Virus record (IMG/VR): IMGVR_UViG_3300027791_000113
Span: 1-26,341 of that record
Origin: a virus
Reading direction: 5' to 3' (one strand)
Length of the DNA stretch: 26,341 nt
A program made the translations under genes and the position numbers. Positions 5,644 through 26,341 of the stretch are shown here, piece by piece. Each line of letters opens with the position of its first letter. Positions within the stretch are counted from its first letter, which is position 1. Under the pieces are notes generated by a model. It made no database searches and had not been told where the DNA came from. It saw nothing but the letters and a program-made list of their open reading frames with translations.

Positions 5644-5672
5644 TTCTCTAGAACCCCCTCAAAGTGTAATAC
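5644..5672 (+). promoter_or_regulatory. Class II promoter-like motif (TTCTCT / TGTAATAC)
   Basis: TTCTCT (5644-5649), 15 bases, TGTAATACT (5665-5673), four bases, ATG 5678. The same arrangement with identical spacing precedes genes at 11417, 20637 and 21143. The TG directly before TAATAC resembles an extended -10; the upstream box differs from the TTGAC promoters. Confidence 0.6.
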
Positions 5673-5677
5673 TAATT

Positions 5678-6973
5678 ATGGAAAAAAAATTAATCGAAAA
5701 ATGCGTTTCTATGTTCCGAGATGGAGCAGGAAAAATGGAAGTAGTTAGACTAATCATGGAATGGACTGGTCTAAAAGAAACTGCCGCAAGAAGTAGGGCA
5801 ACAAATATTTGGAACAATGAGTTTGAAGAGGAATATATTCCAGTCTCAAATCGCGGACAAGAGGATTTTAAATCTGAAGACAATGGCTTTAAATCTGGCG
5901 GGACAAGGTTTGACCAGAATGACGAAAACAACGCAACGGCGGAATCTAAAAACGAGAACGTCAGAACCTTGGAAGATTTGCTCGAAGTGTGTAATGTTGA
6001 TTTAGAATATTGGGAGGTCGAGAGACATATAATTAATAAATGGGAGGTTGCCGCTAAAGATAATATAGGTGAGCTCCGCCATTCTCCACTCTATCAAGTT
6101 AAAGCTTGGCTAAAAAAACGTGAAGTCAAAAACGCAGAAGAGGTCGTAAATTATTTTAACGAGTCATTGCAGAGTATTTCTCCGAAAGTTAAAAAAAGAA
6201 ATGCTGGCGGTAAATATATGTATGAAATTTCCATACCCGATCTGCATTTGGCTAAACTCGGATGGGAACCAGAATCTGGACAGGACTACGATGTTAATAT
6301 CGCCGCTAATTTATTTAGATCGGCAGTAAAAGACCTCTTAAGTAAAGTAAATTTAGATGAAGTATGTAAGGTTCTTCTTCCAGTCGGCAATGACTTTTTC
6401 AATTCAGAGGGTCTTTCTGGAGCCACTACTGCAGGCACTCGACAAGATGATGACTCTAGATGGCAGAAGTCTTTTAGCATTGGTTGTAATTTAATCTCAG
6501 AAGTTGTTGATGAACTATCTAAAAAGGTTAATGTAGATATTGTTATTGTTCAAGGAAATCATGATTTCGAGAGAGATTATTATCTTGGAGAATTCTTGAG
6601 AGCTTGGTATAGAGGCAATGAAGCAGTAAACATAAATAATAGTCCCAAGTCTAGAAAGTATGTTGAATTTGGAGAAAACCTTATTTTGTTTACTCACGGA
6701 AATGAAGAAAAGCAAAGCGAACTTCCATTGTTGATGGCTACTGAGCATCCAAGCTTTTCACAATGCAAGTTTAGAACAGCACATTTGGGACATCTTCATC
6801 AGACAAGAGTAGTTGAAAATAAAGGGGTTACAGTGAAAATTCTTCCGTCTCTCTGTGCTAGTGACGCATGGCATAAGGTTAAAGGATTCTGTGGAAATAG
6901 AAGATCCGCTATGGGCTTTTTATATGATCCAGTTTATGGAGAGGTAGCAAACTATTACTATAACGTAGTTTAG
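5678..6973 (+). CDS. Calcineurin-like metallophosphoesterase (SbcD/Mre11 superfamily)
   Basis: 431 residues. N-terminal helical segment (about 1-50), a linker rich in Asn, Ser, Glu and Gly (about 55-95), then the phosphoesterase domain from about 180 with the full metal-ligand set: D188-L-H190, GND 237-239, GNHD 293-296, H340 and GHLH 371-374. Such enzymes hydrolyse phosphodiesters; phage members are often annotated as SbcD-like DNA repair exonucleases, but no SbcC partner is nearby. The N-terminal helices could be a DNA-binding domain (inference). It is the only gene between a class II promoter and a hairpin terminator, so it is probably expressed as its own unit. Confidence 0.85.
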   Translation: MEKKLIEKCVSMFRDGAGKMEVVRLIMEWTGLKETAARSRATNIWNNEFEEEYIPVSNRGQEDFKSEDNGFKSGGTRFDQNDENNATAESKNENVRTLEDLLEVCNVDLEYWEVERHIINKWEVAAKDNIGELRHSPLYQVKAWLKKREVKNAEEVVNYFNESLQSISPKVKKRNAGGKYMYEISIPDLHLAKLGWEPESGQDYDVNIAANLFRSAVKDLLSKVNLDEVCKVLLPVGNDFFNSEGLSGATTAGTRQDDDSRWQKSFSIGCNLISEVVDELSKKVNVDIVIVQGNHDFERDYYLGEFLRAWYRGNEAVNINNSPKSRKYVEFGENLILFTHGNEEKQSELPLLMATEHPSFSQCKFRTAHLGHLHQTRVVENKGVTVKILPSLCASDAWHKVKGFCGNRRSAMGFLYDPVYGEVANYYYNVV

Positions 6974-6999
6974 CTATTCAAAATGAACTTATCATTTAA

Positions 7000-7022
7000 A
7001 CTATGCGTCCGATCCGCATAGT
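7000..7022 (+). terminator. Hairpin, probable terminator
   Basis: Perfect 8-base stem ACTATGCG (7000-7007) and CGCATAGT (7015-7022), 7-base loop, followed by CTATTTGTTG, a poor T-tract. It lies 27 bases after the phosphoesterase stop, in the longest intergenic space of the first 20 kb. A TTGACC at 7030-7035 has no convincing -10, so I do not call a promoter there. Confidence 0.55.
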
Positions 7023-7083
7023 CTATTTGTTGACCTAGGTATGATAGCGAAATTTATTTTGTGATCATATATATTAATTGTAC

Positions 7084-7111
7084 TTGACTAGTAACAAAAC
7101 TACTATAGAAT
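7084..7111 (+). promoter_or_regulatory. Promoter for dnaB, leaderless geometry
   Basis: TTGACT (7084-7089), 16-base spacer, TAGAAT (7106-7111), six bases to ATG 7118. Same -10 hexamer as the gmd promoter. A 5-base inverted repeat TAGTA (7089-7093) and TACTA (7101-7105) sits between -35 and -10. Confidence 0.6.
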
Positions 7112-7117
7112 TACCAT

Positions 7118-8596
7118 ATGCCAAAAATCATAAGCGGTCCGAGTGACCAAAGTTTAGAGCGCAAATTTTTAGGAGGACTAATCCACAATGGAGTTGATGT
7201 CTGGATTGACATTTGCGACTTTATAAAGGAAGAAGATTTCACAAATAGTGGAGTTAAGATGTTGTTTAAGGTTTGTAGGCTTCTTTTAGAAGAGAATAAA
7301 ACTTTAGATTCTGCGATCATATCTTCACGTTGCAAATCCCAAGGGATTACAATTAGTGAAGGGAATGTGGGAGACTTCATAGAGAATCTTTTGATTTCTC
7401 CTTTAAATGTTAAGTCTAGCGTTGAAGCGGCGCAGGAATTGATAATGCTACGAATTCGCAGGAATAAAATAGCTAATGCTAGAGATATTGCTAAATTTTC
7501 TCAAGATTTCGAAGGAACAAATTTATCAGACTTTGCAAATGGAGCGGAAGAAATCTTCGCTGATGGTAACGATATTATCCTCGACAAGCACGAGCCAGTC
7601 AATATTGCTCAAAGTGCATATGAAATCGTAGAAGAGCTTGGCAATAACGATGGTGAATACGTCATTAAGACGCCTTGGCCTACCTTTAACGCCGCTTTCT
7701 CTGGCTTTCGACCCAAGGACTCATATTGTATAGCAGGAAGACCCTCACACGGCAAATCTGGCGTTCTACTTTCCCTTGCTCAGTTTTGTGCGAATGAAGT
7801 CGAAGACAACTTTATTGATGGCAAAAGATTACCAGTTCTATATTTAGATACTGAAATGGATGCGAAAGAGCAAACACTTCGTTGGGCGGCAATGGTAGCT
7901 GATATTGACCCATTTTTAGTCGAAAGTGGAGACTGGAGAAAAAACAAAGATTGTGTAGAAAAAATTAGAACCGTACTTAAAGATAAGTCTTCTACTGATA
8001 ACTTCCACCACGTTTACGTTCCTGGTCTTTCGGCTATGGAAATTCGTTCGATTTTTCGTCGATGGGTTAGAAAAACCTGTGGTCGAGATAACGTAGGAAT
8101 TGTAGTTTTTGATTATCTAAAAATCACTGGAGAAGAACTTAAGGGTGCATCAAATCCAAGACTTGAAATGGGCTATAAGCTTGATATGCTTAAGGATGAA
8201 ATCAAAGATAACTCTAATTGCACTTTTCTGTTTGGAGCTCAAAGAAACAGATATGGGGAAGATGATGATAGTTCTATCGCAGAGTCAGACTATATTCAAC
8301 AGCTTTCCACTTGGACTGGTCTGATTAAAAAGAAATCTATGGCTGAGCTCGCAGAACAGCCAGCAGATGAATTCGGCACCCACATGTTGATACCTACAAA
8401 ATTCAGAAAGCTTGGTAGGGATGGTCAAAACTTTGAGAATCCAGTCAAGATCGAGGGAAAGTATTTAAGAAACTGGATTAACCTTGATTTCTCTAACTTT
8501 AGATTTAATGACAAGGACGATGGTAGAGCAGTTCAAGATTACCTAAGTCTAGTTGCATCTAATAACGGCAACAACAATAGACGGCAAATACCATAA
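7118..8596 (+). CDS. dnaB: Replicative DNA helicase, DnaB family
   Basis: 492 residues, normal DnaB length. N-terminal primase-interacting helical domain (about 10-150: ERKFLGGLI, then LRIRRNKIANARDIA), linker, and RecA-like ATPase domain from about 180. Walker A GRPSHGKS at 207-214; H1a-type Asp-Thr-Glu (LDTEMD 243-248); Walker B IVVFDYLK 328-335; late arginine-rich KFRKLGRDG stretch. A hexameric helicase unwinding ahead of the phage fork. The C-terminal tail is Asn/Gly-rich and low in complexity. The primase gene follows after 12 bases, the classic helicase-primase pair. Own TTGACT promoter with ATG at about +1. Confidence 0.92.
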   Translation: MPKIISGPSDQSLERKFLGGLIHNGVDVWIDICDFIKEEDFTNSGVKMLFKVCRLLLEENKTLDSAIISSRCKSQGITISEGNVGDFIENLLISPLNVKSSVEAAQELIMLRIRRNKIANARDIAKFSQDFEGTNLSDFANGAEEIFADGNDIILDKHEPVNIAQSAYEIVEELGNNDGEYVIKTPWPTFNAAFSGFRPKDSYCIAGRPSHGKSGVLLSLAQFCANEVEDNFIDGKRLPVLYLDTEMDAKEQTLRWAAMVADIDPFLVESGDWRKNKDCVEKIRTVLKDKSSTDNFHHVYVPGLSAMEIRSIFRRWVRKTCGRDNVGIVVFDYLKITGEELKGASNPRLEMGYKLDMLKDEIKDNSNCTFLFGAQRNRYGEDDDSSIAESDYIQQLSTWTGLIKKKSMAELAEQPADEFGTHMLIPTKFRKLGRDGQNFENPVKIEGKYLRNWINLDFSNFRFNDKDDGRAVQDYLSLVASNNGNNNRRQIP

Positions 8597-8608
8597 TTAA
8601 AAATCGTC

Positions 8609-9598
8609 ATGTCAAACGTTAAGCAAATTCTAAGAGATAATGGAGTAAAAATAACTAGTGAAAACGATTCTGGGTTTGCTCAGTTTTGTCCTTCCTATCG
8701 AAACTCTAAAAATCCGATGGGAGCTTCGATCAATCTTAAAACTGGTTGGGTTATTGATTGGAGTCAGGATGAAAAATTTCCGTTAGATGTTTTAATTAAA
8801 AAACTCGGAGGCAAAGAACTTTCAAAGAAAGATCTTGAAAACTTACAACCAATTTTTGAGCAGACTGATGAGAAAGAAAAAACTTTCTGGAAAAAAGATT
8901 CTCTTTTGCATTTTTTGCCAAACCATACTTACTGGTTAGACAGAGGGGTATCCAAAGAAACTCTAGACTTTTTCCAAGGCGGAGTGTCTCATAGTGGTAA
9001 ATTGTATCAGCGTTACGTATGGCCAGTTTTCGACCGCCATCAAAGAATTGTTGGGTTTACAGGGAGAGATTTAAGTGGCGAAGCTAAAATCAAATACAAA
9101 CATGAGGGAAAAAGTTCTTATTTTCTTTTTGGTTTATTTAATAAGCTTGGCAACTCTATGCCCATACTATCTAGCATTTTAGAATCTAACGAAGTTATTC
9201 TTGTCGAAGGGCCATCTGATTCGGTCGCTTGTTATGATGAGGGAGTTAAATTCGTATTGCCGACAATCGGCTTGAACATTTCTAAAACACTGATGAGTTT
9301 TCTTATAGGAGTAAACCCAGATAAAATTACTATATCTTATAATAGAGATGATAATTTTGCGGGTCAAAATGCCGCTGTTAAAAACTTTGCAAAATTGGCA
9401 CAACACTTTGATATTGAAAAGCTATGTATTAAGTATCCGACAGGAAATGATTTGTCGGATAATAAAAAAGATATTCAAAGTTGGGTTGACAAAAATGAGG
9501 ATTCTGCTATACTTGAGTTTAGAGAAAAATTCAAAAGATTAAGAAATAACAATAAAAAAATGACACAACAGGAGATTAAGATAGGAAAAACCTTTTAA
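8609..9598 (+). CDS. dnaG: DnaG-type primase with degenerate zinc-binding region
   Basis: 329 residues, shorter than bacterial DnaG (about 580). N-terminal part (about 24-68) aligns by eye to the CHC2 zinc domain but keeps only C27 of the metal ligands. Next is a catalytic core with FTGRDLSGEAKIKY (150-163) and a TOPRIM domain from about 195 with VEGPSD (199-204) and a modified second acidic motif, N245-R-D247-D248 followed by FAG. It would make RNA primers on template exposed by the adjacent DnaB. The lack of zinc ligands and the Asn in the second acidic motif are departures from the norm, so template recognition or activity may differ. No separate C-terminal helicase-binding domain is obvious. 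Confidence 0.85.
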   Translation: MSNVKQILRDNGVKITSENDSGFAQFCPSYRNSKNPMGASINLKTGWVIDWSQDEKFPLDVLIKKLGGKELSKKDLENLQPIFEQTDEKEKTFWKKDSLLHFLPNHTYWLDRGVSKETLDFFQGGVSHSGKLYQRYVWPVFDRHQRIVGFTGRDLSGEAKIKYKHEGKSSYFLFGLFNKLGNSMPILSSILESNEVILVEGPSDSVACYDEGVKFVLPTIGLNISKTLMSFLIGVNPDKITISYNRDDNFAGQNAAVKNFAKLAQHFDIEKLCIKYPTGNDLSDNKKDIQSWVDKNEDSAILEFREKFKRLRNNNKKMTQQEIKIGKTF

Positions 9599-9610
9599 TC
9601 AAAACTAAAA

Positions 9611-9868
9611 ATGGCTATAGTAATTAACATAATAGTAACTTATATAGGAATCGGCATTCTTTTTTGTATATCGGAGCAAAGATATAGGAATTATATATTA
9701 TTAAGGATCTCATGCTCCAATTTAAGGGGTATAGAGCGTGATTATATGCTAAGCATAACTGAATCATATTTACAAAAAATTCCCTATCGACAGTTAAGAG
9801 CGATTGCCTCTTTGTTTTTTATTCCAGTTTTAGTGCCTTATATATTAATTTATCATGGAAAAAGATAA
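9611..9868 (+). CDS. Small two-segment membrane protein
   Basis: 85 residues with two hydrophobic segments, about 4-20 (IINIIVTYIGIGILF-like) and about 64-82 (IASLFFIPVLVPYILIY), joined by a basic and polar stretch, so probably an inner-membrane hairpin protein. No family recognised. Its last 14 bases overlap the following SLOG-like gene, which suggests coupling. Small membrane proteins next to nucleotide-sensing proteins can be effectors, but nothing here proves that. Confidence 0.7.
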   Translation: MAIVINIIVTYIGIGILFCISEQRYRNYILLRISCSNLRGIERDYMLSITESYLQKIPYRQLRAIASLFFIPVLVPYILIYHGKR

Positions 9869-10346
9869 AATTAAATTAGGAATCTTCTGCTCTTCTTCTT
9901 TTAAAAATTATCCCTTCATCGAAGGAATCTTAAATAAAAAGGTTGAGGAAATAGGATTAATCATTTCTAATAACTCTGGTCAAAGATTACCAGAGAAATA
10001 TTCTCATGAAAAGAATATTCCAATGTTGTCCTATCCGATTGGCAAAAATTTAAATGCTTTAAAAGCTAACGACTTAATTATTAAAGCTTCTGACTGTATT
10101 TTAATTATCGATGATGGAAACTCCAAGAATAATCATACTGTTAAAAAAAAGTGTGGTATTGTAAATAAAAAACTTACATTTATTGACGCTCCACGCGAAG
10201 ATACAATTTTAGATGCGGTGAAAGAATTTTTTGATACGTTTGAAAAATCCAAGGAAGATGATCTAAAAGATTGGGTTTGCGGATCAAAAAGAGGTTTTGA
10301 TAAGCTAATTAAACTTCAGGAAAAATATCAAAGATTAATTAAATAA
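9855..10346 (+). CDS. SLOG/DUF2493-like nucleotide-binding protein
   Basis: 163 residues with a Rossmann-like pattern: KLGIFCSSSF (7-16), EEIGLIISNNSG (31-42), a HEKNIPMLSYPIGKNLNA block (51-68), KASDCILIIDDGNSKNNHT (77-95), then GIVNKKLTFID (101-111). The order (glycine strand, age-of-molecule and sugar/nucleotide loop, then a second strand before an N-x-x-T helix) resembles SLOG superfamily proteins (DprA, LOG, DUF2493/YspA), which bind nucleotides or their derivatives. In defence systems SLOG domains sense signalling nucleotides; in phages the role is usually unknown. Overlaps the upstream membrane-protein gene by 14 bases. Family call moderate; ligand unknown. Confidence 0.6.
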   Translation: MEKDKIKLGIFCSSSFKNYPFIEGILNKKVEEIGLIISNNSGQRLPEKYSHEKNIPMLSYPIGKNLNALKANDLIIKASDCILIIDDGNSKNNHTVKKKCGIVNKKLTFIDAPREDTILDAVKEFFDTFEKSKEDDLKDWVCGSKRGFDKLIKLQEKYQRLIK

Positions 10347-10348
10347 TC

Positions 10349-11380
10349 ATGAGTAATAAAAAAGAATTTGCCCTTTCCCCTAGCCGTATAATGAGTTACG
10401 TAAAGTGCTCATATGTATATTATATGGAGAATACTCTCATGTTGGACAGTGGCAAGAACTTTGGCAATATGAGAGGAAGCGTTCTTCATGAGGCGTGTGA
10501 GCTATTAATTAAAGAAAAATACAAAAAAAGAGTTCAGAAAATTATTGATAGCGGTAGCATATCAAGCGATCCCGCTCTTATTAGATATTTAAAGATCAAA
10601 GGATACCAAGAAGGTTTAAGGGATGAGTTTGACCACAAGGGTAATAATAATTTTGAAATGATTTGCGACATGTTATATGTTGTTTTGTCGAATGACTTTT
10701 ATTGCGAAGGCTGGGATATAGACTATGACAATCTTGAGGTTAAATTTACTCTTAGGAGCGAGGAGCCAGAATACGTAATTCGAGGCTTGATTGATAAGCC
10801 AACTAGTAGAGATGGGGTCTACAAGATTTTAGACTACAAGTCTAGTCAGTCTAAAAAATCTAAAAAAGATTTGGAAATGGAAATCCAAGCTTTGTGTTAT
10901 ATTTTATACTGCATCAGGGGTTTAAAGGCGAAAGACGCTACTGTAGACTTTGTTTTCGCTCGTTTCCCAGACGACCCGATAGACCGTATTGAGAATATTT
11001 CTAAAAAAGAGTTAGAAGGATTTGAGCATTACTTGTCAGATTTGTATTCTCATTTAAAAGACTTTGATAAAAACAAGGCATCAGAAAATCTCGCGGCAGA
11101 AAAGGGATATATTAAAGATGGCGGATTCGAGGGGAAGGTTATGTGCGGATATGCTCAGTATGAGGGACATTCTTACCCAGAGACTCACAAGGACAAGGAT
11201 AAAAGAGGTAAACCCTATTATTGTTGCCCATATAAATTTGCATTTACCTATTATTCGCAAAGAGATATCGATGGAAATATTGTAAAATCTAGCAAAAATT
11301 TAGAAAATCTAGAAGAAGTCGGAAAATATTATATTACAGAAGAGCAACATGATGGTTGCCCCGCATTTAAATCTGTTTAA
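10349..11380 (+). CDS. PD-(D/E)XK exonuclease, RecB/Cas4-like, possible iron-sulfur cluster
   Basis: 343 residues. Motifs in order: LSPSRIMSYVKC (9-20), GSVLHEA with H47, GLIDKP with D149, ILDYKSS with D162 and K164, and the motif-IV-like Q180. This is the RecB/Cas4/AddB C-terminal nuclease pattern. Cysteines at C20 and in the C-terminal part (C266, C292, C293, C337) are placed like the one-plus-three set that holds a 4Fe-4S cluster in Cas4/AddB, so a cluster is plausible. Likely role: 5' or 3' resection of DNA ends for recombination with the RecA-like protein. It ends the dnaB-led group; a class II promoter starts directly after it. Confidence 0.85.
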   Translation: MSNKKEFALSPSRIMSYVKCSYVYYMENTLMLDSGKNFGNMRGSVLHEACELLIKEKYKKRVQKIIDSGSISSDPALIRYLKIKGYQEGLRDEFDHKGNNNFEMICDMLYVVLSNDFYCEGWDIDYDNLEVKFTLRSEEPEYVIRGLIDKPTSRDGVYKILDYKSSQSKKSKKDLEMEIQALCYILYCIRGLKAKDATVDFVFARFPDDPIDRIENISKKELEGFEHYLSDLYSHLKDFDKNKASENLAAEKGYIKDGGFEGKVMCGYAQYEGHSYPETHKDKDKRGKPYYCCPYKFAFTYYSQRDIDGNIVKSSKNLENLEEVGKYYITEEQHDGCPAFKSV

Positions 11381-11382
11381 TA

Positions 11383-11411
11383 TTCTCCTTTAGGCGTAAA
11401 ATCTGTAATAT
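11383..11411 (+). promoter_or_regulatory. Class II promoter-like motif (TTCTCC / TGTAATAT)
   Basis: TTCTCC (11383-11388), 15 bases, TGTAATATT (11404-11412), four bases, ATG 11417. Identical spacing to the motifs before 5678, 20637 and 21143. It lies between the nuclease stop and the signal-peptidase-like gene, and could drive the whole sugar operon to 15344. Confidence 0.6.
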
Positions 11412-11416
11412 TATGT

Positions 11417-11770
11417 ATGAGGATTTTATTTATAATCTTACTCTTAACTGGCTGTGCCACAAAAGAAAAATCTCCTAAAAATATATTTTTTTATGAACTG
11501 CCAGACACTGGAAGTATGGAACCAGCACTTTCTGGGGGTGACATCATTTACTTAGACCGCTCATTTGAATATGAAGATCTTAAAGTTGGCGATGTAGTGG
11601 CCTATTATGAACCTAAATATGGAATTATTAATGGCATTCTACATAGAATCGTGAGAAGCTCTTCTCCTAAAGAGTGGGTAGTGAAAGGGGATAATAATAA
11701 AAACATCGACAGGTATAATCTTAATGAAGAAAGTTATTACGGGAAGCTAATTAGGGTTGATTTTAAATAA
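11417..11770 (+). CDS. Signal peptidase I-like (Sec11/SipW-type, S26) lipoprotein
   Basis: 117 residues. N-terminal lipoprotein signal peptide: MRILFIILLL hydrophobic run, then lipobox L-T-G-C with C13, so it is probably anchored on the outer face of a membrane. The body matches the S26 signal peptidase core: G32-S33-M34-E35-P36 with the nucleophile S33, GDVVAY (58-63), H76-R77-I-V, and VVKGDNN (88-94) with D98. The absence of a central catalytic Lys and the presence of HR-I-V and KGD resemble the ER/SipW Ser-His-Asp subgroup. The protein is very small (a bare core). It could cleave exported phage or host proteins; the substrate is unknown. First gene of the sugar operon. Confidence 0.72.
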   Translation: MRILFIILLLTGCATKEKSPKNIFFYELPDTGSMEPALSGGDIIYLDRSFEYEDLKVGDVVAYYEPKYGIINGILHRIVRSSSPKEWVVKGDNNKNIDRYNLNEESYYGKLIRVDFK

Positions 11771-11790
11771 TTATATTTGATCATTACTTT

Positions 11791-12558
11791 ATGATTCTGG
11801 TCATAGGAGAAAATATTACAGATATATTTATTTATTGTAACTCAAAAAGGTTATCTCCAGAAGCTTGCTGTCCAGTATTGACACCTGAGAATAAAGTTTT
11901 AAATTCCGGGGGTGCTGGAAATGTTGTCCAAAATTTAAAATCCCTAAAAAATAAGGGTGTTATCGGAATTCATCAAAAAAAAGAAATAACTAAAACTCGA
12001 TATATTGTTGGCAATCAACATATTATGAGGTATGATGAAAATGATGAATGCGAAAATCTAAAAATTAAAGAGCTTGAGAAAACTCTGTCTAAAAGAGGGG
12101 TAAGATTATCTAGATTTGAAGCAGTAGTAATTTCTAGTTACTCAAAAGGATTTGTAACCCCTGACTTAATAAGGGATATCAGAAAAAAATACGAGGGACT
12201 GATTTTTATTGATACCAAAGATAAGAAGGGAGACTGGTGTGAGTTTGTGGATTTTATAAAAATAAATGACAAAGAATGGCTTGAGAATTTTAATTCAAAA
12301 TACGAAGGAAGTGCTAATATCTTCGTTACAAAAGGTTCCGAAGGAGTTAGCTGGATAAACAAAAATAAAAACTTTATGGTTGATCCCATTGAGGTTGCGG
12401 ATTTTGTGGGGGCTGGAGATTCATTTTTCTCTGGATTTATTACAAAATACTTGGATTCTAAAAATATAGAAAAAAGTCTTGACTTTGCTAATAAATGTGC
12501 TAGAGTATCGGTAAGTAAAAAGGGTGTGGTGTCTGTTAAAAAAGAAGACATTATTTAA
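11791..12558 (+). CDS. hldA: D-glycero-D-manno-heptose-7-phosphate kinase (HldE kinase-domain type, PfkB family)
   Basis: 255 residues, PfkB/ribokinase fold. RLSPEACCPV (20-29) is the signature of the HldE/RfaE kinase family; SGGAGNVVQNL (39-49) contacts sugar; TKTRYIVG (67-74) and FVGAGDSFFSGF (205-216), with catalytic D210, are conserved. The HldE reaction phosphorylates D-glycero-D-manno-heptose 7-phosphate at C1. It is about 60 residues shorter than the usual domain, apparently missing part of the lid region between residues 50 and 65. It stands alone, while in many bacteria it is fused to the nucleotidyltransferase encoded next. The substrate is inferred from family and neighbours; another phospho-sugar is possible. 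Confidence 0.8.
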   Translation: MILVIGENITDIFIYCNSKRLSPEACCPVLTPENKVLNSGGAGNVVQNLKSLKNKGVIGIHQKKEITKTRYIVGNQHIMRYDENDECENLKIKELEKTLSKRGVRLSRFEAVVISSYSKGFVTPDLIRDIRKKYEGLIFIDTKDKKGDWCEFVDFIKINDKEWLENFNSKYEGSANIFVTKGSEGVSWINKNKNFMVDPIEVADFVGAGDSFFSGFITKYLDSKNIEKSLDFANKCARVSVSKKGVVSVKKEDII

Positions 12559-12590
12559 CACTAAACAATCGTAACTCTGGTAAAAATAAA

Positions 12591-13025
12591 ATGAAATCGA
12601 GCAAATTTGATATCAAAGAGATTAACATATCTTTTTGTGCTGGCTGTTTTGATGGTGACTACTTGCATGATGGCCATAAATATTTAATAAATAAAATGGT
12701 AGAAGCTTCTAATTACCAAGTTATTGCCCTAAACTCTGACGACTATATAAGAAGACACAAGAGGGATCCAATCTGCCATCAAGATGAAAGAAAGAATCGA
12801 CTATTAAAATTAGGACTTGACGAGGTAGTAATTTTCGACGAAGATTCTCCAATACAAATAATTAAAACAATTGAGCCCCATAGCATTTTCGTAGGAGATG
12901 ATTATACTTTAGATCGTGTAGTTGGATATCCCGAATGCAAAGAATGGGGAGGCGAAGTTCAAATCATAGATCGTATAAACGATATATCAACAACAAATAT
13001 AATTAATGAAACTAATTTACCTTGA
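12591..13025 (+). CDS. hldC: Heptose-1-phosphate nucleotidyltransferase (HldE C-terminal type)
   Basis: 144 residues, cytidylyltransferase fold. GCFDGDYLHDGHKYL (18-32) gives the H26-x-G-H29 nucleotide-binding motif; FDEDSPIQIIKTIEPHSIFVGDDY (82-105) and VVGYPECKEWGGEVQIID (110-127) follow HldE order; DISTTNII (131-138) is the ISSTxxI-type motif. Expected reaction: transfer of AMP from ATP to heptose 1-phosphate. There is a three-residue insertion between FD and LH compared with the common FDILHAGH. Its last 20 bases overlap the HAD gene. Strong family call; the exact nucleotide (ADP or another) is not shown by the sequence. Confidence 0.85.
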   Translation: MKSSKFDIKEINISFCAGCFDGDYLHDGHKYLINKMVEASNYQVIALNSDDYIRRHKRDPICHQDERKNRLLKLGLDEVVIFDEDSPIQIIKTIEPHSIFVGDDYTLDRVVGYPECKEWGGEVQIIDRINDISTTNIINETNLP

Positions 13026-13539: not shown

Positions 13540-13709
13540 GCAAAGTCATATCATTAAAACCGAATATAATGTATTATATTCGCGAAAAAACATTAAAAGA
13601 TTATGAAGAAGGTAAAGTAATCTTCAAACATAAAGACGAAGACAGAGAATTGAAAGTAGAAGTTTGTGGTCGATTTCTGCTCGGATATAACATTAAATTA
13701 CATGATTAA
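13536..13709 (+). CDS. 57-residue protein inside the sugar operon
   Basis: Short ORF beginning in an ATGA overlap with the HAD stop (ATG 13536) and ending TAA 13707-13709. It overlaps the ATG of the cupin-epimerase gene (13702) by eight bases. Sequence begins MSKVISLKPNIMYYIRE and has a basic, beta-prone C-terminal half (about 30-57, REL-K-VEV-CGRFLLGYNI). Overlaps on both sides, as for its neighbours, support a real coupled gene rather than a gap. No family recognised; perhaps a small regulatory or structural subunit. Confidence 0.6.
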   Translation: MSKVISLKPNIMYYIREKTLKDYEEGKVIFKHKDEDRELKVEVCGRFLLGYNIKLHD

Positions 13710-14973: not shown

Positions 14974-15344
14974 GTTTAAACTTTTATCAAACCTGCCCAA
15001 CAATTGATCAAGGAATTGCGGAGTGCAAAGATATTATCGAAAACTATCTTGATGATATGGTAAACGATATAAATCCCGAATTTTATTCTGACGAAAAGGG
15101 TAAGAACAAAAATAACGTTGTTGAGTCTTTTAAAGATATGATATACAATGATATAGAACATATCTTCGAGAGCGTTAGAGAGACAAATGTTCAAATGAGA
15201 GAGGTGGCTGATGAACAAATTCGTAATTTAGAATACGAGGTTGAGGAAATGAGCAGTGAATTGGAGGATTTAAAAATACAACACGAGGAGGCTGAAAAGC
15301 AGATTTTAAATTTAGAGATTGATAGAGAAAATGCTTGTGATTAA
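14970..15344 (+). CDS. Coiled-coil protein, unknown function
   Basis: 124 residues starting in an ATGA overlap with the epimerase stop, so translationally coupled to it. The N-terminal part (about 1-60) is acidic with many Asn and Asp; the C-terminal half (about 65-120) has a regular leucine/isoleucine heptad pattern with acidic residues, a long coiled coil. An AAGGAG at 14953-14958 lies 11 bases before the start; it is one of the few Shine-Dalgarno-like sequences in the window and is inside coding sequence. No enzymatic motif. Last gene of the sugar operon; role unknown. Confidence 0.75.
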   Translation: MSLNFYQTCPTIDQGIAECKDIIENYLDDMVNDINPEFYSDEKGKNKNNVVESFKDMIYNDIEHIFESVRETNVQMREVADEQIRNLEYEVEEMSSELEDLKIQHEEAEKQILNLEIDRENACD

Positions 15345-15360
15345 TTTTCAATAAACCTAT

Positions 15361-16065
15361 ATGATTAAAAAAGATACAGGGCAAGATTTACTTAGGTATA
15401 ATTTTAATGATTATAAGTTTCTATGCTATGATTACGAGACCGAATCATTGTGTCTTGCTGGTAATAATAAGCCTTGGGAAGTGGGCTATATAACGGTAGA
15501 AGGCGGTAAAATTACTTCCGAACACAACCGTACCATTTGGTGGGAAGATTTAAATATTTCTGATGATGCCGCTAGAATTACTCGATTTAATTATGAAAAC
15601 TATAAAAAAAGTGCAGAAAATCCTGATTTAGTTCTTGATCAATTTGAAAATGAGCTTTATGACCCAAAGACCATCAATATTACTTATAATGGTTTGAATT
15701 TTGATATGTACCTTCATCAGTTATGGAGAAAGAAACTTGGCAAAGAGATTGATTGGACTTTCTTGCCTCGCTCTATTGATATTCTTGTCCTGTCTAGAGC
15801 TTATCGCATGGAGATGGAACCCCCAGATAATTGGGAGGATTTTTTCTGTTGGCAATTAAAATTGGCTAACTATTTCAGTGATAACAGAACAAGAGCTTCT
15901 CGTAAATTACCAAGTTGCACTCTAAAAAAGATGTGTTATGAACTTGATATTGAATTCGATGACGGACAGGCGCATGGAGGACTTTATGATGTCCATAAAA
16001 CTTGGGAACTATTCAAGCATCTTATTAGAAAAATGGAAATAACAACCAAACACCTACATATTTAA
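15361..16065 (+). CDS. dnaQ: DnaQ-like 3'-5' exonuclease (DEDDh proofreading type)
   Basis: 234 residues. Exo I CYDYETESL with D24 and E26; Exo II TYNGLNFDMYL with N108 and D113; Exo III AHGGLYDVHKTWELF with H203 and D208, so the DEDDh set is complete. Known role: proofreading 3'-5' exonuclease for Pol III-type polymerases or DNA repair. It is upstream of the polymerase genes in the same orientation, with one unknown gene between, which fits an epsilon-subunit role. No C-terminal alpha-binding domain is recognised; about 30 residues follow Exo III. The start is preceded by an ATAAACCTAT stretch, also seen before 2851, and no Shine-Dalgarno. Confidence 0.88.
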   Translation: MIKKDTGQDLLRYNFNDYKFLCYDYETESLCLAGNNKPWEVGYITVEGGKITSEHNRTIWWEDLNISDDAARITRFNYENYKKSAENPDLVLDQFENELYDPKTINITYNGLNFDMYLHQLWRKKLGKEIDWTFLPRSIDILVLSRAYRMEMEPPDNWEDFFCWQLKLANYFSDNRTRASRKLPSCTLKKMCYELDIEFDDGQAHGGLYDVHKTWELFKHLIRKMEITTKHLHI

Positions 16066-16098
16066 AACAGGCAATAATCCAACAAACTAAAAAACTAG

Positions 16099-16177
16099 TT
16101 GACAATATAGTGGAGTGATGCTACTATTGTTTGTACGACTTAAAACAAAAACAAAAACAAAATATAAAAATATAATT
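16099..16177 (+). promoter_or_regulatory. Strong promoter with CAA-rich leader
   Basis: TTGACA (16099-16104), 17-base spacer, TACTAT (16122-16127): the closest fit to consensus in the window. It is followed by a leader of about 44 bases rich in AAAAAC repeats (16141-16160) and TATAAAAATATAATT before ATG 16178. The leader has no Shine-Dalgarno and almost no G. An imperfect dyad ACAATATAGT and ACTATTGT overlaps the -10. Such long promoters recur before 20323, 21903 and 24020. Confidence 0.7.
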
Positions 16178-16630
16178 ATGGCAAAGAAATCATTTAAACT
16201 AGAAGACGTAGAATTTGTATGCGACAAGAATCAGCTTGAATCAGATAAGAGACAGGCTGTGCTTAATGATCTTAAGGCTATGCTTGAGGAAGAGCAAGAG
16301 CAGGAAGATGTTGAAAAAGTAGAGTATAAGATTGTTGGCTTGTTCCCCGATGGCGAGGGCTATGATAAAATTTCTATTGAAGATAGGGTAATAATTCCTA
16401 TTAAATTGCCAGTAGAATTTGATACTGCGACTTTACAAGACCACATGGTATTGGCGGCAACAAAGCATAATGAAAGTGGTAGAGCTAAAAAGCAAGGTAA
16501 AATTTTTACACTCAATGATTTACTGACAAAGGCGACAAAAAAGAATTTGACAGAAGAAGGAATTAAAGTTCAGTGCGAAGGTCGTTTTGAGATTGTGCCT
16601 TGCAATCCTCAGCTTATTAATGAGAAATAG
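16178..16630 (+). CDS. Unknown protein, own strong promoter
   Basis: 150 residues from ATG 16178. An upstream GTG at 16115 in frame would add 21 low-complexity Lys-rich residues and would start within the promoter, so it is rejected. Acidic helical N-terminus (about 22-50, with EEEQEQEDVEKVE), then a beta-rich middle with SIEDRVIIPIKLP (about 71-83) and a lysine-rich end (QGKIFTLNDLLTKATKKN). No family recognised. The strong promoter and CAA-rich leader suggest high expression. Its location between proofreading exonuclease and polymerase makes a replication accessory (for example DNA-binding) role plausible but unproven. Confidence 0.8.
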   Translation: MAKKSFKLEDVEFVCDKNQLESDKRQAVLNDLKAMLEEEQEQEDVEKVEYKIVGLFPDGEGYDKISIEDRVIIPIKLPVEFDTATLQDHMVLAATKHNESGRAKKQGKIFTLNDLLTKATKKNLTEEGIKVQCEGRFEIVPCNPQLINEK

Positions 16631-16633
16631 ATT

Positions 16634-17368
16634 GTGATTTATTTGTTTTCTAGTGCCAACTCCCTGAACTCAATTCTTACCATTGATAAAAAATCAAAGG
16701 AGGGCGGTAGCGATTCTATTTTTCAGATTGCAAAAGAAAACAATATAGATCAGGTATTTTTAATCGAAAAAAACCCATCCTCTTTCCCTCAAGCACTTAG
16801 CAACGCTACAGAACTAGGTCTACAGCTCGTTTATGGGCTCTCCTTGACAGTCTGTGATAACTCAGACGACAAAGAGCTAGAATCGATTTCTACGGAGCAT
16901 AAAATGGTTTTTATTGCCAAGACTGGCGAGGCATATAAGAGCATTTTAATGAAGCTATATAGTGATGCCGCAACAAGGGGAAATTACAATGGTTTGCCGA
17001 GAACAGATTTCGATCGAATCAAAGAATTTTGGGGGGACGATATGCTAATGATGGTTCCATTTTACGATAACTTTCTGCATAAAAACTTATTCTCATTTGG
17101 CAATTGTTTAGTAAAATTCCAAGAATATAATCCTGTGTTTTGCGTTGAATATCACGAGCTACCACTAGATCGGATGATGGCTATTAAAATAAAAGAATAT
17201 TGCAAGGAAAATGACTATGACTATATCAAAAGTCATAGCGTAAGATATAAGAGCGAGGAAGATATCGATGCATACTTGACTTATAGATGTATTCAGAATA
17301 AAAGTAGTATTCAATGCCCAAACCTTGAAGGCTTTTGTTCAAATAAATTTGCATTAACAAATGATTAA
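16634..17368 (+). CDS. Separate, degenerate PHP domain of DNA polymerase III alpha
   Basis: 244 residues from GTG 16634. The order of helices and strands follows the N-terminal PHP domain of DnaE: SANSLNSILTIDKK, then QIAKENNIDQVFLIEKN, LGLQLVYGLSLTV, MVFIAKTGEAYKSILMKLYS, and late VRYKSEEDIDAYLTYRCIQ, the motif typical of the PHP end. The metal-binding residues are missing: the usual H-x-H near the start is S-S-A-N and the D-H-G-N is E-K-N-P. So it is probably a structural, non-catalytic domain. Its stop overlaps the ATG of the polymerase gene by eight bases, in a different frame. The residues continue the family alignment directly into that gene. Confidence 0.75.
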   Translation: MIYLFSSANSLNSILTIDKKSKEGGSDSIFQIAKENNIDQVFLIEKNPSSFPQALSNATELGLQLVYGLSLTVCDNSDDKELESISTEHKMVFIAKTGEAYKSILMKLYSDAATRGNYNGLPRTDFDRIKEFWGDDMLMMVPFYDNFLHKNLFSFGNCLVKFQEYNPVFCVEYHELPLDRMMAIKIKEYCKENDYDYIKSHSVRYKSEEDIDAYLTYRCIQNKSSIQCPNLEGFCSNKFALTND

Positions 17369-19985
17369 AGATAAAGATTTTTTAAGTCAATTTGAAAATT
17401 ATTCCGATACTTATAATGTCCTTGGAGTTAGAATTCCGCAGGTAAATATAGGAGGTTCATATGCTAAGAAATTTGATTTAGATTTGTCAAAAGACGAACA
17501 TCAAATTCTTAGACAGCTTTGTCTGCACGGATATAAAAAGCTAGATATCGACTCCTTGCCAAATAAGGAGATTTACAGAGAGCGTGTAAAATTTGAGCTA
17601 GAAACCCTTAAAAAACTTGGATTCACTCGCTATATTCTTATGGTATGGGATCTGATTCAATGGTGTGACGAAAATAAAATCGCCAGAGGTTGGGGTCGTG
17701 GTTCTGTTGCAGGAAGTCTGGTATCTTATCTAATAGGTTTAACTGCGGTTGATCCAATTAAGTATGATCTAATTTTTGAACGTTTTATTAATGAGTCTCG
17801 TGCTCAATCAAAAATTGTTGATGGAGAACAGTATTCGGACGGAAGCACTGTTCCAGATATTGACTTTGATGTTTGTTACCTCAATCGCAGTCGAGTAGTT
17901 CACGAATATTTGGGATCTAAATATCCTAAAAAGACTGGGCACATCTCTACTCTTAATACCCTTTCGACAAAACTGGTTCTTAAAGAGGTCTGTAAGAAAT
18001 ATGGAGGCTATAACGAAACTCAAGCCAACCGACTTTCTAATATGATCGAGAGCGATGCAGGAAAGCTTGATTCCCTTAAAGACACCCTAGATAAGAATGA
18101 TCAGTTTAAGGAATGGGTAGAGGAAAATCCTAAGATATATAATATATGTTTGAAACTTTCTGACCTGCCGAAAAACTTCGGTCTCCATGCGGCAGGTATT
18201 ATTGTATCATATGATGAAATTTTTAATTCTTTGCCACTTGAAGATAGGGATGGCGTTATAACTTCATCATATACAAAAGACGATGTTGCTGAGCAGGAAA
18301 TAAAGCTTGATGCTTTGGGTCTAAAGACCTGTACAATCATTTATGAAACAGCAAAAGAAGCAGGATACGATTTAAATAGTTTTGATCCTAATGACCCAGA
18401 GATATACAAGCTATTTGAAAAGTTTGATTATAGCTATGGAGTCTTCCAGTTAGATGGAGACACTGCTTGTAAAGTAACCAAACAAGTTCAGCCTAAGAAT
18501 ATATCAGATATTTCTGCTATCTCCGCTATCGCCAGACCGGGTGCATTGGCTTTTTTGGAAGACTTTTTAGAATCTAGAAAAACTGGTAAAATAAAATCTA
18601 TTTATCCGCCTATCGATGAAATTCTAGCCAACACTTCTGGCGTTATTCTATATCAAGAGCAAACAATGAAAATTGCTCACGAGGTTTACAAATTCTCTCT
18701 TGTAGAAGCTGATATCTTAAGAAAAATTATTGGCAAGAAACAGCTCGAAAAGGTAAAGGAGTGGGAAGAAAAAATTAAAAAGGCAGGTATAGATCAGGGA
18801 ATACCAGAAGACGCAACTCAGATTTTTTGGGAGACGGTTCAAGCATCTGCGAAATATCAGTTCAATGCGAGCCATTCATACTCATATGGATACATTAGCT
18901 GTCTCTGCGCTTATCTAAAGATTAAATATCCAGCAATCTTTTTCAAAAACTGTCTTATGCTTGCTCGTTCGTTCCAAGATAGCGAGGCTCGTATTATGAA
19001 AATATGTAAAGAGCTTCCATATTTTGGTATTGAACTCAGACCACCAGACCTTGTTAAATCTGAGGAAGACTTCTCTGTTGAAGGCAATATAATTCGCTAT
19101 GGAATTAAGTCAATAAAATCCGTCTCGGAAAAGACTCTTGTAAAGCTTAAGGAGTTTAACTCAGTTCAGACAAATAAATTCCAACTATTTGAAGCGGCAA
19201 ATAAGTCTGGTATTAATATTAGGATTTTGTCTAACCTCATTAAGGCAGGATGCTTGAGCTCTTTTGGGGATAACAGGGGACTACTTACTCTTGAGGCCGC
19301 TAGTTGGAATGCTTTGACGGACTCTCAGAAAACTAAAATATTTAAATTCGGAGAAAAATATAATTATGATTTACTAAATATTCTGCTTGATATTAAAGAT
19401 GGTAAACTTCTCAGCGATGGAAAAGAAATTATCTCAACAAAAAAACGTAAAACCAAGTCAGGAGAGAAATCTTCTTGGGACACCTTTTATAGTAAATATC
19501 TTCCACACAAGTTAGAATGGAGTAGCTACGCCAAGTATGTAGATTTCTACAATTATTATTATGAGCAAGACATTCTTGGTTTTGCATATAGTAAAAAATT
19601 ATTTGAAATACTAGAGCCAGAATACAAAGGTATTATACATCTTGGAGATTTGGAGAATTCGGTAGAAGATTCTATCGTAACTTCTTGCGGGATAGTGCAA
19701 GAAGCGAGTGTTGGTAAGACTCAAAAAGGAAATAAAAAACTAACCCTTACAATAGGCGACGAATATGGTCAAAGTAGGGTTCAGGTTTTTAACTTTAACA
19801 GATTTGATAGAGCAACCAGAACAACAGAATTTCTTAGTAATGTTGATGATTTGAAAGATCAATACGGCAGACTCCCAGAAAAAAAAGACGTTATTGTTTT
19901 TAGGGGCACGAAAAAGACTAATACTGTGTTCGCTGATAAAATTCGCATTTTAAACTTAGATTTCAAAGAAAGTATTGACAAATAA
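17361..19985 (+). CDS. dnaE: DNA polymerase III alpha subunit (DnaE type) lacking PHP domain
   Basis: 874 residues. Palm: GRGSVAGSLVSY (112-123), catalytic D166-I-D168 in VPDIDFD, D317 in KLDALGLKT. Fingers: YGVFQLDGDTACK (359-371) and ARPGAL (391-396); YQEQTMKIAHEV (431-442), LRKIIGKK (453-460), FNASHSYSYGYIS (501-513); HhH and linker (about 600-640); an LGFAYSKKLF region (739-748); and a C-terminal OB fold (about 771-866). All three catalytic aspartates are present. The N-terminus matches the segment that follows PHP in DnaE, so with the previous gene it forms about 1118 residues, close to a complete DnaE. Main replicative polymerase of the phage. It starts in an 8-base overlap, and no Shine-Dalgarno is seen. 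Confidence 0.93.
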   Translation: MIKDKDFLSQFENYSDTYNVLGVRIPQVNIGGSYAKKFDLDLSKDEHQILRQLCLHGYKKLDIDSLPNKEIYRERVKFELETLKKLGFTRYILMVWDLIQWCDENKIARGWGRGSVAGSLVSYLIGLTAVDPIKYDLIFERFINESRAQSKIVDGEQYSDGSTVPDIDFDVCYLNRSRVVHEYLGSKYPKKTGHISTLNTLSTKLVLKEVCKKYGGYNETQANRLSNMIESDAGKLDSLKDTLDKNDQFKEWVEENPKIYNICLKLSDLPKNFGLHAAGIIVSYDEIFNSLPLEDRDGVITSSYTKDDVAEQEIKLDALGLKTCTIIYETAKEAGYDLNSFDPNDPEIYKLFEKFDYSYGVFQLDGDTACKVTKQVQPKNISDISAISAIARPGALAFLEDFLESRKTGKIKSIYPPIDEILANTSGVILYQEQTMKIAHEVYKFSLVEADILRKIIGKKQLEKVKEWEEKIKKAGIDQGIPEDATQIFWETVQASAKYQFNASHSYSYGYISCLCAYLKIKYPAIFFKNCLMLARSFQDSEARIMKICKELPYFGIELRPPDLVKSEEDFSVEGNIIRYGIKSIKSVSEKTLVKLKEFNSVQTNKFQLFEAANKSGINIRILSNLIKAGCLSSFGDNRGLLTLEAASWNALTDSQKTKIFKFGEKYNYDLLNILLDIKDGKLLSDGKEIISTKKRKTKSGEKSSWDTFYSKYLPHKLEWSSYAKYVDFYNYYYEQDILGFAYSKKLFEILEPEYKGIIHLGDLENSVEDSIVTSCGIVQEASVGKTQKGNKKLTLTIGDEYGQSRVQVFNFNRFDRATRTTEFLSNVDDLKDQYGRLPEKKDVIVFRGTKKTNTVFADKIRILNLDFKESIDK

Positions 19986-20003
19986 AATATAAGACTGTAT
20001 CGT
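19975..20003 (+). promoter_or_regulatory. Promoter, leaderless geometry
   Basis: TTGACA (19975-19980), 17-base spacer, TATCGT (19998-20003, weak -10), seven bases to ATG 20011. The -35 lies in the last codons of dnaE. First T to ATG is 36 bases. Confidence 0.45.
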
Positions 20004-20010
20004 CACGATC

Positions 20011-20202
20011 ATGAAGGAAACGAAGAAATTACAAAAGGATAAGACAATTATCAAAATGAAAAAAGAGGGAGGAGTGTATTGGCCTCAAAATCATAAAGAT
20101 ATTTTTCGACATTGTACAAACGGTGCTAACGCACTTAGTGAATCTGAATTTTCAAAGTTTTATGAAATTTTCGCTTTACATAATGTTCAATTATACTTTT
20201 AA
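20011..20202 (+). CDS. Small basic protein, unknown function
   Basis: 63 residues. Lysine-rich N-terminal third (about 1-18), then a helix with HKDIFRHCTNGANALSESEF near 28-47 and an aromatic C-terminal tail. It has its own TTGACA element with the start at about +1. No family recognised. It begins a run of small unknown genes after the polymerase. Confidence 0.65.
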   Translation: MKETKKLQKDKTIIKMKKEGGVYWPQNHKDIFRHCTNGANALSESEFSKFYEIFALHNVQLYF

Positions 20203-20247
20203 TTAAAAATAAAAGATATTTCGACTCAAATAAATACAATAAAAGCC

Positions 20248-20322
20248 TTGACACGGATCAGTATAGAGATATAACTGATAATCAAACAAATAAACCTTAA
20301 CAGAACTATTTAATAATAAAAT
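20248..20322 (+). promoter_or_regulatory. Promoter with dyad over the -10 and CAA-type leader
   Basis: TTGACA (20248-20253), 16-base spacer, TATAAC (20270-20275). A dyad, ATCAGT (20257-20262) and ACTGAT (20274-20279), spans the spacer and -10; it could be an operator. The about 40-base leader contains CAAACAAATAAAC and TAATAATAAAAT before ATG 20323, similar in style to the leaders at 16099, 21824 and 23950. The 120-base gap 20203-20322 holds nothing else that I can see. Confidence 0.6.
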
Positions 20323-20619
20323 ATGATTGATCGCAAAAGAATTCTACAATCCTTCTTCCAAGTTAAAAAAACTTCCAAATATATCTGGCATGGTTTGCCA
20401 ACTTCTAATCAAGAAAAAAAACAAAGGGCAAAACGAAAAATTGAATTGTCACCACATGACATTTTGATTCCATCCGTAAATAATAAATTCTGGAACAAGA
20501 TTAATAAAAATGGGGCAGTTAATATAGAGATACCAAGTAAACACCTAGTTATGGTCGATAACTCTATTCTTTTTGATAATACTTACTATATTAATGGGTT
20601 TGATCCCCAAAACTCATAA
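20323..20619 (+). CDS. Unknown small basic protein
   Basis: 98 residues. Basic N-terminal third (KKQRAKRKIEL near 32-42), then a beta-prone part with FWNKINKNGAVNIEIPSKHL (about 56-75) and VMVDNSILFDNTYYINGF (76-93). It could be a small beta-barrel or substrate-binding-like fold, but no family is recognised. It has its own leadered promoter, so probably one of the more strongly expressed genes in this block. Confidence 0.7.
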   Translation: MIDRKRILQSFFQVKKTSKYIWHGLPTSNQEKKQRAKRKIELSPHDILIPSVNNKFWNKINKNGAVNIEIPSKHLVMVDNSILFDNTYYINGFDPQNS

Positions 20620-20631
20620 TTTGTGTAATAA
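20603..20631 (+). promoter_or_regulatory. Class II promoter-like motif before a GTG start
   Basis: ATCCCC at 20603-20608 (weaker match to TTCTCY), 15 bases, TGTAATAAT (20624-20632), four bases, GTG 20637. Spacing is identical to the motifs at 5644, 11383 and 21109. It lies across the end of the previous gene and supports the GTG start. Confidence 0.5.
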
Positions 20632-20636
20632 TTACT

Positions 20637-20861
20637 GTGGCGATTAAAAAAATAAAATCTATACACAAACGTATGTTCTATAAGTACAAGATGATAGCTG
20701 AAGAGTGCTGTTATACGAGGATAAAACTAAGCGACGGTGCCAAAATTGATATCCAAGGAGGATATCTTAAAGAAACTGAGTTTCATTTTGCAAATAAAGA
20801 AAATGCAGATTTTTTCTCAAATATGCTGAAAAGTCTGATAGTTTTTAAAAATAAAATTTAA
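20637..20861 (+). CDS. Unknown small protein, GTG start
   Basis: 74 residues beginning at GTG 20637, placed exactly four bases after the class II motif TGTAATAAT. Basic N-terminus (VAIKKIKSIHKR), then a mixed alpha/beta part with AEECCYTRIKLSDGAKIDI (about 21-39) and a hydrophobic C-terminal helix (about 56-74). No family recognised. Ends eight bases before the next gene. Confidence 0.68.
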   Translation: MAIKKIKSIHKRMFYKYKMIAEECCYTRIKLSDGAKIDIQGGYLKETEFHFANKENADFFSNMLKSLIVFKNKI

Positions 20862-20869
20862 TTACAATT

Positions 20870-21103
20870 ATGGAAAGATACGAAACTAAAAAATTTGACT
20901 CCTTTTCAGAGTCAAAAGCTCTCTGGGATGAACTGTTAGACACCTTTAAGGAATTAAGACTTTCACCATTTTATTCATTTAAGGGGTACAATAAAGGGTC
21001 TTTTAAGAGCTATTCCATATCCTTTATGGTAAAAAGTAACAGTGAAGCCCAAATATTAAATAAGCTTCGCAAAAAAGTGGAGTTATTTAAAATTAACTGT
21101 TAA
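20870..21103 (+). CDS. Unknown small protein
   Basis: 77 residues. Amphipathic helix near 12-31 (SESKALWDELLDTFKEL), beta-prone middle (FYSFKGYNKGSFKSYSISFMVK, about 34-55) and a basic C-terminal helix. The layout (helix, two strands, helix) is a small alpha/beta domain, possibly related to the neighbour at 20637, but I see no clear sequence match. No family recognised. Probably co-transcribed with 20637. Confidence 0.68.
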   Translation: MERYETKKFDSFSESKALWDELLDTFKELRLSPFYSFKGYNKGSFKSYSISFMVKSNSEAQILNKLRKKVELFKINC

Positions 21104-21108
21104 AGACC

Positions 21109-21137
21109 TTCTCTAAATTGCATGTATAATGTAATAA
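21109..21137 (+). promoter_or_regulatory. Class II promoter-like motif before a GTG start
   Basis: TTCTCT (21109-21114), 15 bases, TGTAATAAT (21130-21138), four bases, GTG 21143: the same spacing as the motif at 5644. A perfect TATAAT (21125-21130) just upstream offers an alternative -10 with a poor -35. It explains a GTG start next to an in-frame TGA. Confidence 0.6.
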
Positions 21138-21142
21138 TATGA

Positions 21143-21577
21143 GTGGGAATCGATGACAAAGTTTATGAAGCAGAAAATGAAGTTTTCATAAATGAAAGAA
21201 AATATACTGAAACTCAACTTAAGAAGTTTTTCTTCTTGATTACGGGAGATAATTGGTTTATAAATAAATATGGTACTGGATATAAAATGTATATTATCGG
21301 CCCAAATTTCTTTGATGCTTCTTACGGATGCTATAAAGAGATATATTTACTTGAAAATGAACACTTTACAGAAAGCACTATTTGTCACGAATTAATGCAC
21401 TCCTGCAAGCATATAAGGGGAAATCCTCATGGCAAAGCTTGGCAAAAAAGATACGTAGATATGGTCAAAATATATATTTCCAATCAAATGGGAGAAGAAT
21501 TAGAGCAAAGATTCGCTAAAATATATGAAAATAATAAAAAAAATTATTTGGCGTTGGAAAATAGAAAAAAAGTTTAA
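21143..21577 (+). CDS. SprT-like zinc metalloprotease-fold protein
   Basis: 144 residues from GTG 21143 (an in-frame TGA ends just before it at 21142). Zinc motif H82-E-L-M-H86, then H96-G-K-A-W100: the HExxH plus HG-x2-[WF] pattern of the SprT/Spartan/WSS1 family, here 9 residues apart. SprT-like proteins process DNA-protein crosslinks or act as small proteases; phage versions are often of unknown use. Length is typical of a minimal SprT domain without the zinc ribbon. The end overlaps the following ORF by 53 bases in another frame, an unusual length for this window. Confidence 0.75.
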   Translation: MGIDDKVYEAENEVFINERKYTETQLKKFFFLITGDNWFINKYGTGYKMYIIGPNFFDASYGCYKEIYLLENEHFTESTICHELMHSCKHIRGNPHGKAWQKRYVDMVKIYISNQMGEELEQRFAKIYENNKKNYLALENRKKV

Positions 21578-26262: not shown

Positions 26263-26341
26263 TAAATAAATAAAAAAAAATATAAATAAAAAAAGTTTTT
26301 TAAATAAATAAATATATATAATCCTCTTATAAAAAAAAATA

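Follow-up and report, generated by a model that had tools for sequence, protein, structure and literature searches.

Promoter-like sites in the window

Four genes of a viral DNA fragment share the same short word at the same distance from their start codons, and the question that they raise is whether this word is a promoter and, if so, what reads it. The window, that is, the whole stretch of DNA analysed, is a 26-kb fragment (26,341 nucleotides) of a virus record, and its relatives were sought by protein scans of IMG/VR. The phage group to which it belongs is apparently uncultured and aquatic. An initial annotation listed four TGTAATANT sites (5665-5673, 11404-11412, 20624-20632 and 21130-21138), every coordinate of which is correct, and took them for a promoter class (class 2 in what follows) distinct from the TTGAC class of the same DNA (class 1). 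The word lies exactly 13 bases before the starts at 5678, 11417, 20637 and 21143, and exactly 34 bases before them stand TTCTCT (5678 and 21143), TTCTCC (11417) and ATCCCC (20637). The pattern TGTAATANT-N4-[AG]TG, seen four times in the window, averaged 0.06 over 100 dinucleotide shuffles and never exceeded 1, and TTCTCY-N15-TGTAATANT was seen three times versus none in shuffles. Two other window matches to TGTAATANT (from 2477 and from 11820) fall within genes of the opposite strand.

All four promoters are on the plus strand. The first one, before the SbcD-like phosphoesterase/exonuclease gene 5678-6973, combines an exact -35-like TTCTCT (5644-5649), placed 16 bases upstream of TGTAATA when counted from TTCTC, with a -10-like TGTAATACT (5665-5673) 13 bases before the ATG. 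Its complete 34 bp are identical in the window and in two relatives, the 41-kb contig G001 (about 92% identical DNA) and the 141,669-bp contig G002 (mostly 85-90% identity where alignable). The protein has a weak Metallophos match and its orthologue in G002 matches phrog_704, a DNA repair exonuclease. Gene 11417-11770 follows a -35-like TTCTCC (11383-11388) and a -10-like TGTAATATT (11404-11412, 13 bases before the ATG) that is the same in G001 and G002 despite a differing spacer. Gene 20637-20861 has a degenerate -35-like ATCCCC (20603-20608; ATCTCC in G001 and ATCCCT in G002) and a -10-like TGTAATAAT (20624-20632) 13 bases before its GTG, and the SprT-like gene 21143-21577, also starting with GTG, has TTCTCT (21109-21114) and the same TGTAATAAT (21130-21138) at the same distance. 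The product of the latter gene matches SprT-like PF10263 with an E value of 2e-5, slightly short of the curated cut-off. The window genes served are exonuclease-like, SprT-like, possibly peptidase-like and, in one case, unknown, and none is structural.

The product of 11417-11770 is a small protein with a lipoprotein-like N-terminus and no Pfam match at E <= 0.01, in which a signal-peptidase/S24-type motif (GSMEPAL...GDVVAYY...HRIV...KGDNN) was noticed by eye. Two adjacent genes next to it (11791-13025), again judged by eye, look like one half each of HldE (RfaE), the heptose kinase/adenylyltransferase: one resembles a PfkB-like kinase, the other a nucleotidyltransferase with GCFDGDYLHDGH. Taken with epimerase-like genes at 60 and at 13666, this pair suggests a phage-borne sugar-nucleotide set. 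The end of the window (25770-26341, about 570 bp) is very AT-rich and almost ORF-free, with no tRNA and no Rfam match.

Recurrence of the motif in close relatives

Homology between G002 and the window is confined to 72-101 kb of G002, and the remainder of this contig, which may itself be incomplete, was used as a held-out test. A second close relative, G005, was used for motif counts, and genes were called with a simple longest-ORF rule. Recurrence in a fuller genome had been named as a check of the class, and the motif was found far above chance outside the window in both G002 and G005. Two motifs of promoter type, CTTGACttt and TTCTCtA...TGTAATAat, came out of expectation maximization (EM) from random seeds on 200 upstream regions of G002, and a seeded run gave T-T-T-C-T/A-C, N16 and T-G-T-A-A-T-A. 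When the spacer was allowed to vary, TTCWC-N15..17-TGTAATA had 11 matches in G002 and six in G005, all of them at exactly N16, and the reversed pattern had none. Held-out G002 contains seven TTCWC-N16-TGTAATA sites versus 0.06 in shuffles, and the six of G005 compare with 0.01 expected. Across the window lineage 25 sites are found at N16 and two at most at any other spacing. Comparison of the window, G001 and G002 gave differences at 0 of 108 positions of the -10 element versus 17 of 180 in the spacer.

A sigma factor encoded by the lineage

A search for a sigma-like gene, the other check that had been proposed, was positive in G002. The 26-kb window contains no sigma gene, and the link between sigma factor and promoter comes from its relatives. 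Sigma factors are the proteins that direct RNA polymerase to its starting points. The gene of G002 (121936-122631, 231 aa) is preceded by genes for a zinc-ribbon protein and PhoH and followed by the one for the large terminase subunit, with a match to Pfam sigma-70 region 2 (PF04542) at 122026-122169. One protein scan found relatives in 15 other contigs and a profile scan at least 591 matching stretches in IMG/VR, while tblastn at E <= 1 found no homologue in 50,697 GenBank phage records. A weak match to phrog_1740 (E 5e-4) was the only one among the PHROGs. In GTDB the family has a single match, on a contig from a metagenome-assembled genome of Flavobacteriales, too weak a pointer to name a host.

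All 56 aligned members of the family match Sigma70_r2 (PF04542, best E 1.1e-6) and TIGR02937 (sigma70-ECF, best E 4.7e-12), the latter over residues 29-195. Region 4 was recovered as Sigma70_r4_2 (PF08281) at E <= 0.1 in 13 of the 56 (best 1.1e-4), with no match for the G002 member, and a structure model predicts helices at the C-terminus. Between region 2 and these helices the model has a short strand, and in this stretch four cysteines (C84, C87, C96 and C108) are invariant in the 56 aligned relatives and probably form a zinc site. Nearly all of the best 50 Foldseek matches in the PDB are sigma factors, with the ECF factor SigH near the top and top probabilities of 0.99-1.00. None of these sigma matches reaches E <= 1e-3 and global TM-scores are about 0.25-0.3, low because the domain packing is uncertain. 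Judged by its region 2 and fold, and with a region 4-like part predicted, the G002 protein is probably an ECF-like (group 4) factor of the sigma-70 family.

The zinc-ribbon protein (110 aa; G002 121604-121936, L028:1604-1936) ends at the start of the sigma gene. The two genes are probably in the same operon, and the 110-aa protein could be a co-factor or an anti-sigma factor. Upstream of this operon a TTGAA(A/T)-N16-TAT-type host promoter is present in 8 of 8 close relatives (alignment by inspection), and five of the eight also have a TGTAATA class-2 site. A sigma operon with host-type and class-2 promoters repeats the layout of phages 7-11 and phiEco32, where host and phage promoters both drive the sigma gene (PMC4331800).

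Conservation of the -10 element with divergent sigma factors

The suggestion that a phage sigma factor may recognize the motif gains from the fact that the lineage encodes one of its own, and from distant relatives that keep the same -10 element. In phages with a sigma factor only 32-43% identical, unbiased enrichment gave GTGTAAT as the top upstream 7-mer, with expectations from a second-order model built from the same upstream regions. It occurs upstream of genes nine times in G014 versus 0.35 expected and 12 times versus 0.7 in five smaller contigs pooled. In 79 further distant loci, some of them close to one another since only identical upstream ends were removed, there were 48 versus 3.2, and about half of the 79 have a TGTAAT site in the stretch sampled. 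The control consisted of 80 unrelated viral contigs (35% GC) reused from a scan for TTTCTC-N16-TGTAATANT, with those sites masked; among the matches listed in that scan there was one per contig and they looked like chance. These contigs gave four GTGTAAT versus 1.4 expected, with no start-codon peak, and showed neither -10 enrichment nor a -35 element. On G014, EM motif search found compositional motifs only, and it was the k-mer enrichment that succeeded.

The -35 element is absent from an alignment of 149 distant sites. TTCWC-N16-TGTAAT was considered as a shared -35 arrangement in distant relatives and rejected, as the matches are mostly homologous, coding-like stretches. In the region 4-like part, the C-terminal helix reads RSLASHRK in one of the two sigma groups and KQIKNxKK in the other. 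Region 2 and the -10 would thus both be conserved, and region 4 and the -35 both changed, a suggestive pattern. The persistence of the -10 element alongside divergent sigma factors is the strongest evidence pointing to a link between this sigma family and the promoter. Separately, AGTCGTTGA/GTCGTTGAT, possibly a further promoter element or else a repeat, shows strong enrichment upstream of genes (10 versus 0.1) in the distant set, L202 among its loci.

Genes served by the two promoter classes

The two classes are distributed differently along G002, in agreement with their having been set apart. The first 52 kb, the structural-gene part with the tape measure and tail-sized genes, contains 11 of 17 class-2 sites versus 0 of 26 class-1 sites (TTGAC-N16..20-TAnnnT; Fisher p = 2e-6). 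The G002 genes with a class-2 site upstream include, in the structural part, the one for the tape measure and several large ones that lack annotation; others are those for PhoH, the SbcD-like exonuclease, the SprT-like protein and the small subunit of ribonucleotide reductase. Class-1 sites are upstream of the DnaB-type helicase gene and many small genes; in the window a host sigma-70-like TTGACT-N16-TAGAAT (7084-7112, plus strand) precedes the DnaB-type helicase gene at 7118. This fits a putatively early, host-type class 1 and a putatively middle/late, phage-specific class 2. Given the non-structural genes of the window, and ribonucleotide reductase and PhoH in the relatives, "late" may mean "middle plus late".

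Start codons and predicted leaderless messages

Of the 43 TGTAATA sites of the window lineage that have a start codon nearby, 19 have it at exactly 13, and in the distant set it peaks at 13-15 after TG, a peak that control words do not have. Other class-2 sites in the relatives have the start at 14, 18, 19, 22, 25 or 38. The initial annotation had used the distance of 13 to fix two GTG starts; being the commonest but not the sole distance, it supports them without fixing them. The start at 20637, GTG in the window and G001, gains support from an ATG at the homologous position of G002, and 21143 is GTG in all three.

In T4 the late elements lie at -13 to -6 relative to the transcription start (PMC1524935), and the motifs of phiEco32 end 6-8 nt before it (PMC4281155). 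With either geometry a peak at 13-15 would put the transcription start on the start codon or within two bases of it, and by this analogy class-2 mRNAs are predicted to be leaderless at most sites. Many class-1 promoters have a like geometry, with TTGAC 33-37 bases before the start. Most gene starts of the window (for example 3455, 9611 and 20870) have A/T-rich upstream sequence with no evident Shine-Dalgarno motif. These starts and the position of TTGAC may reflect a general leaderless or Shine-Dalgarno-free translation in phage and host.

Proposed mechanism and alternatives

We consider it highly probable that the class-2 motif marks middle/late promoters at which the host RNA polymerase works with the phage sigma factor. 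The promoter class would be TTYCWC-N16-TGTAATAnT, and the 231-aa ECF-like protein, with region 2, region 4 and the four-cysteine insertion, would bind the host core RNA polymerase. Its region 2 would read GTGTAATA as the -10 element and, in the window lineage, TTCWC at -35 spacing would probably be read by region 4. The host holoenzyme would be the first to transcribe the sigma operon, from the TTGAA-N16-TAT promoter, and in most close relatives the class-2 site would add a positive feedback. Transcription would begin at the start codon, or within about two bases of it, at most sites and give leaderless mRNAs. We infer from these patterns that sigma factor and promoter make contact and that host polymerase is used, and also the timing and the point where transcription begins. 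As to the history of the system, we lean slightly towards an ECF-like sigma subfamily of this large clade's own, with a probably zinc-binding insertion, an ancestral -10-only GTGTAATAT and leaderless starts, from which the window lineage would have gained or kept TTCWC together with a diverged region 4.

That the shared words are due to chance, or to common ancestry of duplicated upstream regions, is scarcely credible. TGTAATA is frequent in AT-rich genomes, with 35 expected in G002, but the shuffle, reversed-pattern, spacer and held-out controls refute both versions, and the sequences between the -35 and -10 elements are unrelated among sites. TGTAATA could also be a translation-initiation signal, a leader element of non-Shine-Dalgarno type, as might be thought from the sharp start-codon peak (13 in the window lineage and 13-15 in the distant set) and from the window having no evident Shine-Dalgarno sequences. 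We hold this to be very improbable because the word is all but missing from operon-internal genes (2 of 177) compared with those that have a gap of 30 nt or more (27 of 173; p = 2.6e-7); in addition, it is coupled to TTCWC by a rigid 16-base spacer and several sites are 18-38 bases from the start.

The host holoenzyme might instead be redirected by a phage activator or co-activator of the MotA/AsiA kind, or an alternative host sigma factor might be used, with the phage sigma factor serving elsewhere. An extended -10 reading (TG and then A-T-A-n-T) is imaginable, and a zinc-ribbon protein is encoded just ahead of the sigma gene. This remains an unlikely explanation: a host sigma factor with an activator leaves a -10 that travels with the phage sigma factor unexplained, when this element tops the upstream 7-mers in phages sharing only a 32-43% identical sigma factor and shows no enrichment in viral contigs that are unrelated but have a similar GC. 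Moreover, the host-type TTGAC promoters of the same genome differ in -10 and location.

Comparison with known phage systems

Promoter recognition by a phage sigma factor substituted for the host one is of a known kind, a phage sigma factor with its own middle/late promoters. The initial annotation had offered T4 middle promoters as an analogy. These combine the host sigma-70 -10 TATAAT with an activator box in the -30 region. The likeness is that of a later second class beside an early host-type class, and it is weak: class-2 sites have TGTAATAnT and no TATAAT as in MotA/AsiA promoters, and T4 appropriates the host sigma-70, whereas the present system indicates sigma substitution. Exchange of the sigma factor, as with T4 gp55 and phiEco32 gp36, fits better. 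T4 late promoters involve co-activation by the clamp and gp33. As in the present case, T4 gp55 is a small phage sigma factor that uses a -10-like element to bring host polymerase to late genes (PMC1524935), and most of the present family seems to use a -10 only. The T4 late element is TATAAATA, different from TGTAATAnT, and the present protein has, unlike gp55, a region 4-like C-terminal domain.

There is also a likeness to phiEco32 gp36, phages 7-11 and SU10, with an ECF-like phage sigma factor, a host-type promoter on its gene, a short, conserved -10-type motif ending 6-8 nt before the start and service to middle and late genes (PMC4281155, PMC4331800). The phiEco32 consensus is TAATGTATA and the one found here GTGTAATA/GTGTAATAT; the present sigma factor has the four-cysteine insertion, and the window lineage adds a -35 element. 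There is no sequence homology at E <= 1 to known phage sigma factors such as phiEco32 gp36 in the 50,697 phage records. Phages AR9 and phiKZ, with a multisubunit RNA polymerase, likewise have a phage-specific late promoter consensus (PMC5312081), but unlike them G002 and G014 have no RNA polymerase beta-subunit gene (PF00562). A search for a single-subunit polymerase (PF00940) gave no match, its control being likewise silent. In the literature searched nothing relevant was found on TGTAATA or GTGTAAT as a phage promoter.

What is new here is a sigma subfamily for which no relative was detected among GenBank phages and a promoter code not found in the literature searched, along with a lineage-specific -35 element and the predicted leaderless messages. 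A regulatory code, sigma factor plus promoter, was in this way obtained from sequence alone for a family whose IMG/VR relatives number at least 591, with none detected among the 50,697 GenBank phage records. In contigs of this phage group early versus later genes, and many start codons, become predictable, and leaderless messages are predicted as the rule for class-2 genes. With its -10 conserved and its -35 variable, the system lends itself naturally to testing which region of the sigma factor determines which specificity.
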